Positions 41,161 through 51,482 of a stretch of DNA of 64,000 bases are shown here, piece by piece; positions within the stretch are counted from its first letter, which is position 1; every line of letters begins with the position of its first letter. Origin of the DNA: Medicago truncatula (taxonomy: Eukaryota; Streptophyta; Magnoliopsida; Fabales; Fabaceae); assembly GCF_003473485.1 (NCBI RefSeq), contig NC_053046.1, forward strand, positions 39,145,832 to 39,209,831, read 5' to 3'. The notes beneath the pieces were generated by a model that saw nothing but the letters and a program-made list of their open reading frames with translations, ran no database searches and had not been told where the DNA came from. The translations under genes were made by a program, and so were the position numbers.

Positions 41161-41439
41161 GCATAGTCCTAAAAACTCGGTTTATCTAAACTTTTTTATT
41201 AGTATAATTTTCTTTTTGTCACTAAAAGACAGAACCGACTTCCGACAAGTTTATTACATACCTAGAATGTGGACGTGGACTAAAGTAACACACATGTTTT
41301 TGTCCCACACTTAAACTAAACATTCCCCCTAAGAACAAAAATGCTACTTTATCTTTCTCACGCTTTACTATATTCCACACTTCTTATCAAAATCCAAAGC
41401 AATAGAAAATTCATGAGCTAAAGAATTTAAGTTTCTACA

Positions 41440-43009
41440 ATGGCAGAAACTGCAGAGAAGAAACCACACATAGTGATGACACCATTCATGGCACATGGTC
41501 ATCTCATTCCATTCCTAGCCCTAGCAAGAAAAATTCAAGAAACAACTACTACCTTCAAAATCACAATAGCCACCACTCCCCTCAACATTCAACACCTTAA
41601 ATCTGCAATATCCAACACATTTTCTTCCTCTAACAATGATATCTCAATCAATCTTGCTGAGTTACCTTTCAATCATAGCCAATATGGTTTACCACCAAAC
41701 GTAGAGAATACAGAAAAGCTTCCTCTAACTGATATAATCAAACTCTTTCATGCATCAACTAGCCTTGAAGCTCCTCTAAGCTCTTTAATATCAAAGATCA
41801 CACAACAAGAGGGTCAACCTCCAATTTGTATTATATCAGATGTGTTTCTTGGTTGGGCTACCAATGTTGCAAAGAGTTTAGGAACTAGGAATATATCATT
41901 CACTACTTGTGGTGCTTATGGAACTTTGGCTTATATCTCTATTTGGTGTAATCTACCTCATAGGAAAACAGATTCTGATGAGTTTTGGGTTCCAGGTACT
42001 CCTAAAATATCTCATTTATATTATTTTTGTTCACTACAAAAACAAAATCTAACTAACTTTATATATGATACTAGGGTTTCCTCAAAACTACAGATTCCAC
42101 ATCTCTCAGATGCATAGATATCTAAGAGCAGCTGATGGAACTGATGATTGGTCAAAATTCTTCCCTCCACAGATAGCACTTTCTATGAAATCTGATGGAT
42201 GGATTTGTAACACTGTTGAGGAGATTGAGAATTTAGGGCTGCAACTATTGAAGAACTATCTTCAACTTCCTGTTTGGTGTATTGGTCCTCTTCTTCCATC
42301 AACTACATTAAAGGGTTCGAATTCAAAGTATCGTGCCGGAAAAGAATCCGGTATAGCTCTTGAAGAATGCATGGAGTGGCTTGATTTGAAAGATGAGAAT
42401 TCTGTTCTTTACATATCTTTTGGATCACAGAACACAGTAAGTGCTTCACAAATGATGGCATTGGCTGAAGGGTTAGAAGAAAGTGAGAAACTTTTCATTT
42501 GGGTTATTAGACCACCTTGTGGTTTTGACATTAATGCAGAGTTCAAAGCAGAATGGTTGCCAGAAGGATTTGAAGAGAGAATGAAGCATAGTAAAAGGGG
42601 TTTGTTGGTGCATAAATGGGGACCTCAGTTAGAGATTCTATCACACAAATCAACAGGAGCATTTCTAAGTCATTGTGGGTGGAATTCTGTATTGGAGAGT
42701 CTTAGCCAAGGGGTGCCAATTATTGGTTGGCCACTTGCAGCAGAACAAGCATACAATGCAAAGATGTTGGTAGAAGAAATGGGGGTGAGTGTGGAACTGA
42801 CAAGAACTGTGGAAAGTGTGATTTCTAAGGAAGATGTGAAGTGGGTCATAGAAATAGTTATGGATCAAGAAGGAAAGGGAAAAGAGATGAAGGAGAAAGC
42901 AAATGAGATTGCAGTACACATGAGAGAGGCAACAGTAGAGAAAGGTAAAGAAAAGGGGTCTTCATTGAGAGCAATGGATGATTTTGTTAGAACCATTTTG
43001 CAAGTATAA
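41440..43009 (+). CDS. UDP-glycosyltransferase, UGT92-like
   Basis: Transfers a sugar from UDP-sugar to a small acceptor in the cytosol. Exons 41440-41995 and 42075-43009 join in frame (WVP-G-FPQNYRF across a 79-bp intron) to 496 codons. The N-terminal acceptor domain has TPFMAHGHLIPFLALA with catalytic His21 and ISDVFLGW with Asp134 in the position of the partner Asp. The PSPG box spans residues 367-410 from WGPQ to AAEQ with HCGWNS in the middle; the last residue is Gln, which in many plant UGTs goes with UDP-glucose. LEADGTDDW-type and EEIENLGL segments resemble Arabidopsis UGT92A1. The acceptor cannot be predicted. No defect seen. Immediately downstream is a LINE tail. Confidence 0.93.
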
Positions 43010-43204
43010 TAAGGTTCTATGAATTGTTGCATTTGAATTTGAGAATTAAAGTTCCTTATGTCTACATATACTGGCTGATCTACAATCTTTTAATAGGGAT
43101 AATGTTATTACTATGAAGGCAAAGTATAATTGACCATTTAATACCTTTATCAGTTTCTAATGCAAATGAGTCAAATTTTATTTATCTATATATTTTATTG
43201 TATT

Positions 43205-44280
43205 TTTTGAATCAGCAAAATTTATTGATACCAAACTCTAGCAAGATGCTTAGAGATGGTGATAAAAGAACAAGGATGCCGCATATAGATGTAACATCCG
43301 AAAACAACTGCCACGACACAACGGTAAACAAAAATATGGCGTAACCACCTTCTGCAACCAAAAAGAATGCGCATAACAGCAGCCGCTGCAACCTACAGAA
43401 GACAGCAGCAGGATACGCAGAACAGCATACTTGTAACAGCAGAAGCATGCCCCACACCCCAATTGAAAAACCAGAGAGCTCCTTGCTAATCACCTACATT
43501 ACCACTCTATCCACATATTGGCAGAAGTGCAACCACCTAATTACGGACCCTCCACAACAGCTGCTTAGACCACCAACCCATTTGCAATCCGAGGAGAAAC
43601 AGCAAAACAGCACAGCCTAACAAAATAGTGTTCAGTTATCTCCAATCGAGTTTCTTATCTCAAAATACACTATTTCAGGTTCCAACACCAGTCATAGTAT
43701 AGGCACGTAGTGATACTGAGCCTACTCAAACTCCAACGCCAAGCCAACACCTTTATTTCTTCAACTAACTCTTCAACCTCGGTCAAAACATTTCTAAAAA
43801 TTCTATGATTTCTCTTAATCCAGATGACCCAAAGTACGGCATGCCAAATGAGTCAAAAACCCTTTCTCAACCTCTTCCTCCTCGCTTCCCTACTCCAGCA
43901 CTCCCAATGAATGTACAAATTTGGCGGCATAATGAACGTTATACCCAACTATCTCATAAGATTGGACCAAATACCCATCACATCACCACCCTACAATGTA
44001 GGAAAAGGTGGTCAACCGATTCCTCCGCTGCCTCACAATAAACATACGCAAGCGATCAGTCCAGACAAATTATATTCCTCCTCTGAAGGTTGTCTCTTGT
44101 TGGGATACGATCCAAAAAGACTCTCCAGCTCAACGCCGCCGCCTTTAGCAAAGCCGGACTCTTCCAAATGGCCCCTTGAACACGACTTACCGACACATTT
44201 CTTCCCCCCTCTAACACTAAAATCCATTCCAGCGTGAATCTACCCCTCCAACTTTCAACGCCACTCGTCTTCTTCCAAGG
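43205..44280 (-). pseudogene. 3' end of a LINE (zf-RVT region)
   Basis: Read on the minus strand with frame changes, the segment gives SWRVFLDRIPTR, then SVDHLFLHC, then FWHAVLWVIWINRNHRIF, then VEELVEEIKVLAWRWSLSRL and YDWCWNP. This is the zf-RVT and C-terminal signature of plant LINE ORF2. Only the end of the element is present. A short A-run follows at the 43200 side. It lies 50 bp from the MULE at 44332. Confidence 0.8.
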
Positions 44281-44322
44281 TCATATATATGTTGATGCTT
44301 TTTTTGTGCTTATAATGTGTTA

Positions 44323-45858
44323 TTTCAATTAGGCTTAAATATGAAATTCATCCCTGCAATTAGGGGTCGTTTAAAAATTGGTCCCTGTATTCGTTAATCC
44401 TTGCAAACTAGCCTTGCAATCATTAATCATTTCAAATTTCGTCCTTGAAGTGATAATCTCGCTGAGGTGGCAGTGATTAGCTGACGTGTCCGATGTTAAT
44501 TGGGATAAATGGCTACTGACTCATACTTTTGCCTTGAATGGACAAAAATGCCCTTAGTTCCCCTTTGACTTCTTTCTTCTTCCTCCTTCTCACCTCTCGT
44601 CATCTTCTCTTCTCCCCTACAACCACCGCGCCGCTGCCAACAACACCAACTTCCTTCTCTCCGTCGAACCGAACACCAACACAATCTATACATGTCAACG
44701 CCAGCCAAAGCTTCAAAAAAAATTCCATTGTACTGCTTCATTCCCTCCGGCCAGATCGACGATGGGAGAACATCGTACATGGCTGCAACATTCTCAATCC
44801 AGTCTTTTCTGTTGGCTGCAACGTCACTGAGTACGTGGTTGTAGAGGGCTTATGACGGAGACGCAACCAGAGGAAAATATGCAGCAAGCACCAGTGGTTT
44901 CTTCCAGCGACGGCGCTGATAATCTACAAAACGATGCGACTGTGGCTGATGTTTCAATTCACATGTAATTTTGCGATGTCACTGAGCTAGTTTTTCTGTT
45001 TGAGAATTCTTTTGAATTGAATTTTGTAATTGTGTTTTGTTTTCAAGAGCCACGGTAGAGAAAGAAGAAGTAAAAAGCGATGTTTTGAGGGATGAAGTTA
45101 TTTGGATTTTACAAGCTATTACATCCACAGGGAGGTTTTGGTGAGTGAGAGTTACTTAACTTTGTGTGCGTGTGTTGGTTGGTTATTAGATTATTAATTA
45201 TCATGGTCCAATTGAGTTAGAGAAGAATGTTTCTTTACAACAACATGTAGAAGACGTAAAAAATGGAACTTTAGCATTTCCAGTTAGTTTCACCATGGGT
45301 TTTGCTATGAAAAGGAAAAGTATGAAATGGTTGAGGAAAAGTGTGGAAGATAAGGAATTTTGTTCTTACTGATGAACAAACACGTTGGATAAATTTGAGA
45401 TTGTTGAAGATGAATATTGTTGGAAGACAAACAGGGGTTTGTTGTAATGAAAATGGATGAGAGAAAGTATGCTGGTTTCAGTTTTGATTCTAATTTTGTA
45501 AGTGAGGAAGGTGATGAATAATCATGTGTAGATGATGAAGGAGGAAGAGGAAGGATGTTATGGAGAGGTTGGTGGTGGTGTGCGATGCAGAGAAGAGGAG
45601 TGAAGGTTTTGAGAAGATGACATCAGGTTTTTTTTTTGTCCTTTCGTGTTTGTCTAAGGGGTATTTTTGTCTTTTCCCAACGGTCTGAGAAGAGAAGGGG
45701 TAAATTGCTGATGTGGCAGTGATTAACAAGGATGAGGGACGAAATTTTAAACGATTAATGATTGCAAGGCTAGTTTGCAAAGATTAGCAAATAGAGAGAT
45801 CGATTTTTAAACGACCCCTAATTGCATGGATGAAATACATATTTAAGTCTTTCAATTA
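44323..45858 (+). mobile_element. Pack-MULE-like element with captured gene exons
   Basis: A 1518-bp element (44332-45849) starts GGCTTAAATATG and ends CATATTTAAGTC. The terminal inverted repeats are ~140 bp with shared words such as GCAATTAGGGGTCGTTTAAA and TTGCAAACTAGCCTTGCAAT. Perfect 9-bp direct repeats TTTCAATTA flank it (44323-44331 and 45850-45858). The interior has no transposase. It is less AT-rich near the left end and holds a spliceable gene fragment. These are the defining traits of a Pack-MULE. Confidence 0.88.
44850..45140 (+). pseudogene. Captured two-exon fragment, PP4R2-like
   Basis: Exon 1 (44850 to about 44964) opens MTETQPEENMQQ; its GTAATT donor joins a TTTCAAG acceptor (about 45047), and the frame continues ATVEKEEVKSDVL, then ILQAITSTGRFW, ending at a GTGAGT donor (about 45140). 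The EEV...ILQ.I.STG.FW pattern matches my recollection of the start of plant protein phosphatase 4 regulatory subunit 2, where FW is followed by HDWDKLK. The next exon is absent. Identity is an inference from a short match. If transcribed, it would give only a truncated protein. Confidence 0.55.
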
Positions 45859-46416
45859 TAAGTTACCTTCCACGCTTTTCAGGACAAGATAATCACTGAG
45901 CACAACGAAATAAATATGCTGTTTACATTTATTTAGCATAGGTTTATTATTAATGTAATGTAACAATCTAATAGTCACATATTACTTATGCTCATTTTTT
46001 GTGAATAATTAATTAGCACTCATACCTTCTTCAAAAAAAATTAAAACTAGCAATTCATACGGTAGTTATGTCACCAAACTTCTTGGATATAGTGACTCTT
46101 AAAAAGACACTGAACAACAATTATACTTTCTTTCCTCTCCCTGGACATGTTCTTAAACCCATTTCTACTCATTGTAATTGATTGTTTGGAGCTGCAGGGT
46201 AGAGGATTTTCCAATCCTTCCTATCAAACAAGTCTTCTGCCTACGATATGATACATGTACAAATATGCAAGAGAACAAATTTTTGTAGAGAAAGAGGCTT
46301 GCACAAAAAAAAGACACTACAATTTCTAATTCATTTGTGTATCAAATGACCACCACACAGCCATCAAAAATACATACTCACATAACCACCCGGCTATTAA
46401 ATGAAACTCAGACGCT
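45859..46416. other. Intergenic and FRS 3' flank
   Basis: Probably contains the 3'UTR of the FAR1-related gene. No other gene seen. Confidence 0.45.
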
Positions 46417-49400
46417 TCAGTTTCGACGCTTTTTCGACATAGGTTCTGAGTTCGCGTCGCCCTGCAAAAATTTTGCATGCAAACAAATATTAATATACAC
46501 AGTGAAAGCAGTTTATCTAAATATTTTTTTTAGATTAAACTAAGTTAAATTGTAGTAACAATATAAAGATACTAGTTGACATATCATTATCAAATTATGT
46601 AAATTTTAACATAGAACTCTAGCCTTTTCTTCAAAAAAAAACATAGAACTCTAGCCTAGATTTTAACGCTGGGTGGGTTGGGTAGCTCAACTAATTTGAG
46701 CTGAGGGTTAGTTGGAGGTCCAGGGTTCAAACCAACCCTGGCAATGAAAAAAAAACTAACATAACAATTAACATACTAACATTTGTCGTTAAAAAAAAAA
46801 AGAGTAGATTTTAACATGATTATTACGCCTCCAGAGATGGAAAACTAGTTGGCTTTCTTGTAACATAGTTGGATTTGGATGGTTAATACATTACTTTTAA
46901 AGATAAACTGATTTGTATGCGATGATGGATGACACACATATTTAGGTAACAGGAAAACTTACAGCACAAGAAAGTTGCTCGCGGATATAAGCCATTGATC
47001 GTAGCACAGCACCCAATGCATCCCTGGATACTTGAAACTTAACTTCAGACTCACCAGAAACCCGGGCATTATCAAGCTGAGACAATTGAAACAATTTCAA
47101 CAAACTTAAAGTTATTCAAAGTAAAGAAAGCCTTTTAAGAAAGTGTCATTCCTGCACAATAACTAAAACAAGAACCACTATTTCTCCCATAATAATAATA
47201 ACATAATACCATTATTTTCTTTACATTTCCTTTTATTCTTTACTACTTCTATTTGGAGGCTGGAAGAAAATGAGAAGTTTTGTCTGTTGTGTATATGGAT
47301 AGACAGAGAGAAAGAATTGTATAATTTTCTCCTTTGCTCATTTGGTCGGACGGAAAAGTGGGGAAAAGATGAATAATCAATGTAATGACCTTTTTACCTT
47401 GATAAAATAACCAAATAAACCCCCACATTAAATGATAGATAAATAGATCTGTAAAATTAAAAAAGGGTAAATTGTCTACTTGAAATTGTGTTTTCTCAAC
47501 TTGAGATAAAATTGAATGTGGCCCCCACATCAACTTAGTTCCTTCTACGCTATATTCTCTCCATAACCAAACAAGAGAAAATGGGAGGCACGGATCAGTT
47601 AGATAGAAAAAAAATGCATACTTTTATACAGACCTAGCAACTATTAGGTCTTATATAATATGCACAAAGATTTCACCCGCAACCAAAGCATCTGAGACAT
47701 CGATATTTAACACAACTATCACTCCACAAATATTCTATTTGCAACAAAATATGGCTTCCAAATTAAAATGTTAATTCTTTCAGTCTTGAGATGCAAAGGA
47801 ATGAAGCTCAATATTCTATCCTTTATGTGTTGCTTATATTGTAAGTTGAGTTTGGTGAAAACCAATTGCAGGATATTGAAGTCAAAAACCAAGTTTAATG
47901 CCTTTCCCTGATATTAGAAGTCCACATTCTTGACAGCATCTTAAACACATTATTAATAACCGGTATAAATATATTCATTTTAGCAATATTCCTATGCCAC
48001 CAGCCACAAAGACCATATACTAGTTCTGTTCTGTTCTTTGTTGTCATTCTATTTTAAAGTTAAAATTCTCTACCTCGACAGCCAGATTCTTTCTTTTAAA
48101 TATAAATCAGCTTATATGTACCTCCCTTTTTGCTTTACATCCCCTTAGTACGAAAACAATTGCATTGATCTCTACTTTCATTCCAGTACTAGAATAACAG
48201 AGCAACAAAATGAACCGGGCATCTTAGAGAATAATGAGTCTAAAGAACAAAATAACATACCTTGAGATTTATTACAGCAACCTTATTAGCTGTTGTTGAA
48301 AGTTGCTCCCCGACTTCAGCCATAGACTTCAAAACAGGTCCCACAGTAACCCGAGAGAGATGGAACTTAACCTCATATTCTGTTGATGGACTCTTGTTAT
48401 AATCTTGCAACTGCAATTGAAATATGTTTAATGACTGGCAATCCTCACTATTACTTTGTTAAAATACTGCGACACGATAAAAGCAAAGTACACTAACACT
48501 AAAAAAGGACCATGGTCAACCGAATGGCAGGAGTTTCTCAAGTGAAACACAGGTATCCAAAACTGATTTTAAATTATATCAGGAATACTACTACCAGTTT
48601 TTTGATGTTGCGATTGATGTGCACATACCTTGAGATTGACAACAGCTATTCTGTTCTCTGGATTTGAGGTTTTGTTCTCCATTACCCACGTCATTGACTT
48701 CAAAGATGGAAGAGCCACCTACATGCCAGAATAAAAGGACTGGCTTAATGTTATGTGCTAAAATTTGGGGCCTAACTCATCCTTACAAAACCGGCTTGTA
48801 AGGTGAGGAATGCCTCCTCTTTATAAACTCTTCTCAAGAGTGCTATCTATCCGATGTGGGACTAAATCCACCCCCTCAAAGCCAACACAATGAAGGTGTT
48901 GGAAGCTGGAATGAAGGCAAACCAAAGGCCGCAATTTAGGCGACTAGGGGCAGACCGCAATAAAGGCGGAATTTCCAACATTATGCATTCTATTCCAATC
49001 CCAAGAACATGTATAAAAAAGCAACAAAAACAGAGATGTTCTTGCCATACCGTGTTTTCAGGTGGACCATCATCTTGCTGAAGAGGCGCTGGGGGAGGAC
49101 CATCATCTCGCTGACGAGGCATTGGGGATGGACCATCAACTCGCCTACGAGGCACTGGTCGTGGACCATCAACTCGCTGACGAGGCACTGAGGATGGACT
49201 ATCAACTCGCTGACGAGGCACTGGGGATGGAACATCAACTTGCTTACGTGGCACTGGGGTCGTTTGTGGTAAATTCAGATCAGCCATTGGTTGAACAGGA
49301 GCATCGACGTCATTAAGATTAAACGTCGATGTTTCATCGTTAAGTGGCCATAAAAGAGGGGCTGTACTTGTATCTGATGTTGAAGTAGGGGTTTTCTTGT

Positions 49401-51459
49401 CGGGATCGGAGCAATCATTCCCGCTGAGTCGATGATTAGTTGATGACACTTTGGCAATATTTCTCTTCATGACATCAACTTTCTTTCCACCTTCTCTAAG
49501 ACCACTCATTGCAGCATCATAAGTTTCCATAGCTACAGCACCTTCCTCAGCATATCTGATGGCTTCCCGGCACAGATTGGCATACCGTGATGTCAAAGAC
49601 TCATATGCAAGTGATTCACCACCACATTCATCCAATACATTACTGTTTTTTGCTTCCATTGTCCACCGTTTTAAGATGTAGTGGGATGGTATAGTGAATA
49701 CATTAGACACGGTAAAAACAGTTAAAATGTGCCTACAAAGAATGCCTGAAAATTCAAACATTTGGCATGTACAGTTAGCTCTCAATTCAGACTGGTTTAA
49801 TGTGACAGTGTACGACTTTTCGACATCATCAAACTTTGCAACTCCAAATATGCTATTCACCCCATCCTCTTCGATTCTGTTGGCGGTATAAGCAAAAGTT
49901 TCAACTAGCTCTTCTTGAAACTTCAAAAATATTCTCTGTGTATAAAGCTTAGCAACCTGATTCTCCATTGGCGAAGGTGTCTTTAGAACTGGATTAGTGC
50001 TAATTGTCTCAAAATCTGATTCTATTTCCTTTTCAAACCATTTCTCCAAAGCTAGTTCATACTGCCTAAAGAACATTGGTAATGTTGTATGCCGGTTGAC
50101 AACACCGTCCAAAAAAGAGGCTTCAAATCCTTGATTAGGAGATATTACAGCGAAAAATGAATCACGGAAATATGCTGGAACCCATTGATCACGAGCACTA
50201 TACAAGGACTGAAGCCAATCATGCCCTCTGAGTTCATATTTGTCTATGATAGAATTCCAAGAAAAATCAAACTCCTCAATTGTTTCTGTCAGGTTAATGC
50301 AATTATAGAGTTCATAGTGAAAATAAGGATGCATGCGACATACATGGCCCAATTTTTCATGGCCTTCTCGCAAGACATAACGTTTGTTTATGCAGTGACG
50401 TGCTTGGGGAAAAACTTGTGATACTGCTGTTTGTATGCATCTGTCCTGATCGGTAGTTATAGAGAGAGGGTGACGGTCATTCATAGCTGCTAGAAATGTC
50501 TTGAAGAGCCAACAAAAAGAAGCCTCAGAATCATCAAAAATGAGTGCACAACCAAACAAAATCATTTGACCATGATGGTTTATCCCAGTGAATGGAGCAT
50601 ATGGCACATTATATTGATTTGCTCTATGTGTTGTGTCCAGGGTAACTGCATCACCAAAATGACTGTAAGCTGTCCTTGATCTTGCATCTGCCCAAAACAC
50701 ATTAGACATACGATTATCTTCATCAAGTTGTATTGCATAGAAGAAACCAGGGTTTTCAGCCTGCACTTTCATAAAATACTCCAGCAGGTCCCGAGCATCC
50801 CTCCCTAATGTCTTCTTTTTAATGGGTTGCCTCGCATTATAAGGCATCGAAGTGGAATTTTTAACTGGATGACTCGTTTTCGCAGCAGCTGCAGGAGAAT
50901 TCCTAATCTTCTGACTATTGTCAGAGGAAACGTGATGAGCATCAATAGATATATACATGACACCAGTTGGAACAAGCCCCAGTCCTTTGTAAGTTTCAGG
51001 CATGGTTCTTCCAACACTAGAAAAGTGCTTCACCAGTTGAAGTTTTTCCACCTTATCAGGTACCGCCAGAGAATGGCTATGTTCCTTCACAAATTTTGTA
51101 ACAACCCACTTATTTTGACCCGTTTGCTCTATCCTAATCATCGCCTCGCAACTTTCAGTCATCCTTCTTTTCAAACCTTCCCTACTACACACAAACTCCC
51201 GGAACATATTTGTCCCATCAGCATTAAACTGACCATGCAAACCAGCTTTTGAGCTGAAACCCGACCGTCTAGCATAGTCACTATAAAAACTTTTAGCAGA
51301 ATCTTCAGAATCAAATACCATGCCCAAATACGGCTCCGAAACCATACCCTCAGCATGAGATCCCGAGTTTCCAGCATCATTAACTTGACCAAATTCAGCA
51401 TCCACATTATGTTCCATCGATCCACTTCCTTCTCCGATAGTTATCACATGAACATCCAT
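46417..51459 (-). CDS. FRS: FAR1-related sequence (FRS) protein
   Basis: Nuclear transcription regulator domesticated from a Mutator transposase. Coding exons on the minus strand are 51459-49051, 48718-48629, 48410-48261, 47076-46963 and 46461-46417; all join in phase 0 to 935 codons. I chose the ATG reading [11 protein letters not shown]. The FAR1 zinc region (residues ~49-131) has Cys91, Cys104, His127 and His129. The MULE transposase-like domain covers ~265-365 ([16 protein letters not shown]). The SWIM zinc finger is CTCQ...CRH (563-577). ADLNLP (726-731) is EAR-like. Residues ~736-800 are six ~11-residue [11 protein letters not shown] repeats. Exons 2-4 each encode a variant of one module (EVKF..SR...VL.SMA....QLS, VAV.NLK). 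The C-terminus SKKRRN looks like a nuclear localisation signal. Reading past the 49050 donor only extends the frame into the intron. Confidence 0.92.
46610..46658. repeat. Direct repeat around a minimal A-tailed insert
   Basis: ACATAGAACTCTAGCCT occurs twice (about 46611-46627 and 46642-46658), separated only by TTTCTTCAAAAAAA. This is what a target duplication around a nearly complete 5' truncation of a retroposon would look like. Confidence 0.7.
46657..46815 (+). mobile_element. Complete SINE in FRS intron 4
   Basis: Perfect 11-bp target duplication TAGATTTTAAC at 46657-46667 and 46805-46815. The element has an A-box region GGGTAGCTCAACTAATTTG, a B-box GGGTTCAAACC (about 46723-46733) and an A-rich tail. 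It is ~137 bp long and in the opposite orientation to the host gene. Confidence 0.88.
48755..48870 (-). promoter_or_regulatory. Dispersed repeat with an snRNA-type promoter (USE + TATA)
   Basis: On the minus strand AGTCCCACATCGG (48863-48851) matches the plant snRNA upstream sequence element RTCCCACATCG. TTTATAAA (48827-48820) follows after a 23-bp gap, the spacing of Pol III-transcribed plant snRNA genes (Pol II ones use ~33). Downstream, CTCACCTTACAA and TTTGTAAGGATGAG form a 12-bp hairpin (about 48776-48806). It lies in intron 1 of the FRS gene, in the same direction. Confidence 0.55.
49055..49260 (-). repeat. 33-bp coding minisatellite in FRS
   Basis: About six diverged 33-bp units encode P-x-P-R-x-R-V-D-x-P-S. 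The repeat keeps the reading frame through to the splice donor at 49050. Confidence 0.85.
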
Positions 51460-51482
51460 TACAAACAATGAAACAACTTATA

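Follow-up and report, generated by a model that had tools for sequence, protein, structure and literature searches.

The locus and the anatomy of the element

The window analysed here is a stretch of 64,000 nucleotides of the Medicago truncatula genome (C5:39145832-39209831), and the assembly searched comprises 430 Mb in 42 contigs. Positions given without a contig are those of the window. A UDP-glycosyltransferase gene (UDPGT) occupies 41431-43009 on the plus strand. A short GT-AG intron at about 41996-42074 (placed by eye), not a frameshift, accounts for the overlap of two frames in this gene. A FAR1-related gene at 48862-51477 on the minus strand exhibits FAR1, MULE transposase and SWIM domains, and its C-terminus has a repeated PRQRVD-like, proline-rich motif. 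The FAR1-related family is derived from the transposases of Mutator-like elements (MULEs).

Between these two genes, about 1.3 kb after the end of the first and about 3 kb from the second, the segment 44332-45849 (1518 bp, C5:39190163-39191680) is a non-autonomous MULE. Its features are as follows.

44323-44331, target-site duplication, left, 9 bp, TTTCAATTA
44332-44444, plus, left terminal inverted repeat, 113 bp, 88.5% identity to the right repeat
44445-44590, plus, left subterminal sequence, native to the MULE family (an element on C2, L013, matches query 5-268 at 85%)
44737-44826, plus, captured fragment of a LEA_2-domain gene, 76/90 to C8:46187208-46187297 minus, E 8.8e-20
44837-45166, plus, captured fragment of a PP4R2 gene, 291/330 ungapped to C4:37690830-37691159, E 5.2e-116
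44852-44964, plus, PP4R2 exon 1, starting at ATG
44965-45047, plus, PP4R2 intron 1, GT...AG
45048-45140, plus, PP4R2 exon 2, followed by the donor GTGAGT
45214-45335, plus, captured fragment of a PORR-domain gene, 93% over 122 bp to C8:41218570-41218691, E 3.6e-45
45339-45388, plus, short block common to two repeat-like places, 83% over 54 columns, E 1.1e-6
45496-45736, plus, right subterminal sequence, native to the MULE family (matches to elements on C4, L011, and C7, L014)
45737-45849, minus, right terminal inverted repeat, 113 bp
45850-45858, target-site duplication, right, 9 bp, TTTCAATTA

The terminal inverted repeats (TIRs) start with GGCTTAAATATG on the left and GACTTAAATATG on the right, and they align over 111-114 bp with 88.5-89.2% identity (88.5% over 113 bp). 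An earlier note on this DNA had rightly recognised inverted repeats at the two ends, but its length of about 140 bp is too long; the perfect 9-bp target duplication that it described is present on both sides. MULEs are characterised by TIRs of about 100 bp or more and target-site duplications of 9-11 bp. The repeats found here are in this range, and the duplications are perfect 9-bp sequences both in the window and around a second copy on C3. In the right subterminal region, 45646-45656 is without a match, and short matches at query 342-393 occur in four places, one of which is the element on C4.

Pack-MULEs are non-autonomous, with no internal transposase. Thirty-four stop-to-stop frames with a length of 30 aa or more overlap the element, and the 10 longest (at least 58 aa) were scanned against Pfam. 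In line with the earlier note, no transposase family was found in these ten frames. The scan gave one PORR match below the cut-off. An Ig_2 match in one frame (13.5 bits, cut-off 27) is at chance level. The 117-aa frame on the minus strand (44496-44849) is without a Pfam match, and an Rfam search of 43000-47500 returned no match.

Captured gene fragments and their parents

The largest captured fragment is colinear with the C4 locus without gaps, intron included. When this fragment was searched alone, three genome matches were reported, namely the two copies of the element and the C4 locus, which is thus the sole non-element match reported. The fragment starts 15 bp ahead of the ATG, continues through exon 1 (113 bp), intron 1 (83 bp) and exon 2 (93 bp), and takes in 26 bp of intron 2 that agree with the parent at 26/26 positions. 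We assembled the parent gene as seven coding exons with GT-AG introns, encoding a 271-aa protein that matches Pfam PPP4R2 with 47.6 bits (cut-off 27.4). The captured peptide alone exhibits no Pfam match. A search with the PPP4R2 family gave 0 matches in the whole genome and also 0 in 14 control genomes, and is hence uninformative on absence.

These results bear out the proposal that a genomic piece of a PP4R2 gene was picked up with its intron: a parental locus for 44850-45140, on which the earlier note had staked that proposal, exists on C4. The two-exon frame that it reported is indeed open across a canonical GT-AG intron, reading MTETQPEENMQQAPVVSSSDGADNLQNDATVADVSIHIATVEKEEVKSDVLRDEVIWILQAITSTGRF, and stays open in both copies over 206 bp. 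At the intron 1 acceptor the element has CAAG|AG against TCAG|AG in the parent. The captured segment was said to end exactly at the splice donor after exon 2, but the match to the parent continues for 26 bp of the next intron, up to 45166. The retention of intron 1 and part of intron 2 speaks against capture via a spliced RNA intermediate.

The two other captured fragments derive from C8, where their parents lie about 5 Mb apart. The frame at the LEA_2 parent locus matches PF03168 with 33.7 bits (cut-off 25.4); it also matches UstYa and H_PPase, both below their cut-offs. Read in the parental frame, the LEA_2 piece is FIPSGQIDDGRTSYMAATFSIQSFLLAATS, and this peptide alone has no Pfam match. 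The PORR parent is a 389-aa frame with 388 bits for PF11955, the plant organelle RNA recognition domain. On its own, the peptide captured from it matches Pfam below the cut-off only. None of the captured peptides thus has a Pfam match above the cut-off, and the identification of the captures rests on the parents. The earlier note had suspected further captured pieces in 44540-44850 and 45190-45480. This holds for the LEA_2 and PORR fragments, but for the rest of the two intervals no source gene was found. The reading SVGCNVTEYVVVEGL, offered there as a meaningful one, lies partly on the LEA_2 piece but in another frame; the captured frame at this place is FIPSGQIDDGRTSYMAATFSIQSF....

All three captures read in the sense direction on the plus strand of the element. 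Pack-MULEs carry fragments of cellular genes whose parents lie elsewhere, outside TIR elements. Here there are three such parents, and stretches of 9901, 4501 and 7501 bp at their loci exhibit no TIR match at E 0.01. The pieces of PP4R2 (C4), LEA_2 and PORR (C8) would have been acquired at the DNA level by a non-autonomous MULE, probably by gap repair or template switching, the capture models named in the excerpted text of PMC8277862. No long shared sequence was found at the capture junctions, an observation that does not decide the mechanism.

About 370 bp of the interior match no source gene or family (44595-44736, 44827-44836, 45167-45213, 45336-45495 and 45646-45656). Fifty of these, the block 45339-45388, match other repeats only: the two places are C7:30967824 and C3:20223264 (L052 1501-1554 and L053 1501-1554), which resemble another repeat family. 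This similarity suggests that transposon families exchanged sequence or that they captured it from one source, and the block is excluded from our count of gene captures.

A second copy and the repeat family

A whole second copy of the element is located at C3:3924942-3926465, with identity at 1468/1513 aligned bases. It is flanked directly by its own perfect 9-bp duplication, AAGAAAAAA, and all three captures are present in both the C5 and the C3 copies. Two copies that carry the same three captures between separate duplications (TTTCAATTA and AAGAAAAAA) indicate that the chimera moved after the capture. Mobilisation as a unit after capture is a supporting, not a required, feature of Pack-MULEs, many of which are single-copy.

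The two copies differ at 46/1515 aligned sites, 34/1401 outside the right TIR and 12/114 inside it. Ten of the 12 differences in the right TIR (45737-45849, window copy against C3 copy) fall within 36 bp. This excess may stem from gene conversion at one end or from mutations that arose in a cluster. As a donor for conversion, none stood out among 38 other TIRs of the family (best 92%).

The ends of the element recur elsewhere in the genome. We compared 22 family copies, consisting of the window copy, the C3 copy and 20 pairs selected from the genome matches for having both ends; at least two further pairs of this kind (C6:41092684 and C8:43024510) fall outside this count. The ends were placed by a 12-base terminal motif and the 9-bp flanks were then compared. 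The copies are 364-1525 bp long, and 18 of the 22 exhibit 9-bp duplications with at most one mismatch, against 6/462 for mispaired flanks. The four failures have two mismatches (L023, L027) or three (L032, L036), and, judged by eye, L032 may have a 10-bp duplication. The earlier note would have been refuted by terminal repeats that prove coincidental on alignment; they are, however, common to other copies with 9-bp duplications.

These observations bear directly on whether any transposon capture took place at all. A segmental or retroposed gene fragment lying beside chance inverted repeats would have to account for the retained introns, for TIRs and 9-bp duplications in two separate copies, and for three pieces coming from three loci on two other contigs. 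No evidence was found in favour of this reading. We give it a negligible probability, and in our view the second copy, which has a duplication of its own, already refutes it.

The terminal repeats, the duplications, the parental loci, the retained introns and the second copy are direct observations. Beside them, we place a probability of roughly 0.93 on the reading that a non-autonomous MULE took at least three gene pieces by DNA-level copying, transposed at least once, and is most likely a non-coding passenger. A MULE transposase encoded elsewhere would move the element in trans. Once assembled, the chimeric element would have transposed at least once, giving the copies on C5 and C3, which have separate 9-bp duplications.

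Fate of the fragments and relation to known elements

The truncated fragments would most likely have the fate of a non-coding passenger, with incidental transcription at most and probably without function. A different outcome is conceivable, in which the element acts as a small, expressed chimeric gene, possibly kept by selection. Such a gene would use the PP4R2 start and intron 1, and its next splice, from the donor GTGAGT, would use an acceptor within the PORR piece or close to it. The PP4R2 ATG, the GT-AG intron and the second donor are intact and in frame, the three captures lie on one strand, and five of the 13 AGs listed in 45200-45345 have a phase that continues the PORR frame. Those five AGs are, however, preceded by weak pyrimidine tracts (0.25-0.6). 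The acceptor of intron 1 is itself altered (TCAG to CAAG), and unless another splice follows, a stop at 45142-45144 ends the frame, just past the codon spanning the donor.

Substitutions were counted over the PP4R2 exons and the PORR piece, pairwise and without an outgroup. Between the window copy and the parent, the PP4R2 exons exhibit 11 synonymous changes over 44.7 sites (about 0.25) and 14 nonsynonymous changes over 159.3 sites (about 0.09), so that the nonsynonymous rate is about one third of the synonymous one. It is also lower than the rate in intron 1 of the window copy (12/83 or 0.145; 15/83 when changes in either copy are counted). This pattern favours a chimeric gene and counts against the passenger reading, as do the exons open in both copies, though over a short length. 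The pattern may be ascribed to constraint on the branch of the parent joined to a neutral branch of the element, a combination expected to reduce the nonsynonymous rate moderately, in agreement with the counts; constraint on the element itself may also contribute. The PORR piece points the other way, with 2 synonymous changes over 22 sites and 6 nonsynonymous changes over 98 sites against its parent, 6/8 thus changing the amino acid. Between the C5 and C3 copies the PP4R2 exons exhibit 2 synonymous and 2 nonsynonymous changes. The substitutions fit unconstrained fragments under drift, without proving it.

Expression of the element as such a chimeric gene appears unlikely to us. In the same way we consider it improbable that the array of LEA_2, PP4R2 and PORR pieces on one strand, in which the PP4R2 start codon, intron 1 and second donor would still function, is a nascent chimeric gene giving a spliced fusion transcript, or that the two copies give small RNAs targeting the parents. 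Action in trans alone, by antisense or small RNAs lowering the PP4R2, PORR or LEA_2 parents, is in our estimate very unlikely. The piece of intron 2, identical to the parent throughout, and the 93% identity of the PORR piece over 122 bp would suit such an effect, and the excerpted text of PMC3310237 mentions a potential regulation of parental genes by Pack-MULEs at the level of expression. Overall identity to the parents is nevertheless 88% for PP4R2 and 84% for LEA_2, mostly in short perfect stretches.

The element is one more multi-gene Pack-MULE, a member of an established kind, with nothing different in kind. Like known Pack-MULEs it has TIRs of more than 100 bp and 9-bp duplications, no transposase was found in it, and it carries pieces of non-transposon genes whose parents are identified, with more than one copy and more than one parent. 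It differs by its set of parents and by its TIR (GGCTTAAATATG...), which has no counterpart in the excerpted texts of PMC3310237, PMC8277862 and PMC4858842. According to the excerpted text of PMC4858842, two or more parents contributed to 5-10% of the putative genes that derive from MULEs in Oryza species. The general view is left unchanged by this well-made but ordinary example. Its value is that of a clean worked case of multi-gene capture, in which three parents are identified, the junctions are placed, and the second copy fixes the order as capture first and transposition after. The locus could serve to test the capture mechanism and the effects of small RNAs on the parents.

Two described families allow a closer comparison. 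The PM-ZIBP Pack-MULE family of tomato is likewise amplified, with lengths of 944-1372 bp and 9-10-bp duplications in the listed rows of the PMC3310237 excerpt. It carries a fragment of one gene, and 13 copies have tandem TIRs and one has single TIRs, whereas the window element combines three genes with single TIRs in two copies. The MuTAnT family of Medicago truncatula also consists of MULEs with 9-nt duplications but, in the excerpted text of PMC4486113, is defined by the TIR mask GGGGTTTGCTAGAACA and by TA-microsatellite targets. In contrast, the TIR of the window element starts with GGCTTAAATATG, the duplications vary, and neither the window copy nor the C3 copy is flanked by TA repeats.

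Closer relatives lie in the same genome. Five elements of 1.2-1.5 kb on C1, C2, C4 and C7 (L011, L013, L014, L016 and L017), outside the count of 22 copies, have ends and subterminal parts in common with the window element and lack its captured interior. Their exact ends are only partly placed, and no target duplication was found for L011. From their structure they may be further Pack-MULEs. Their interiors are unlike that of the window element.
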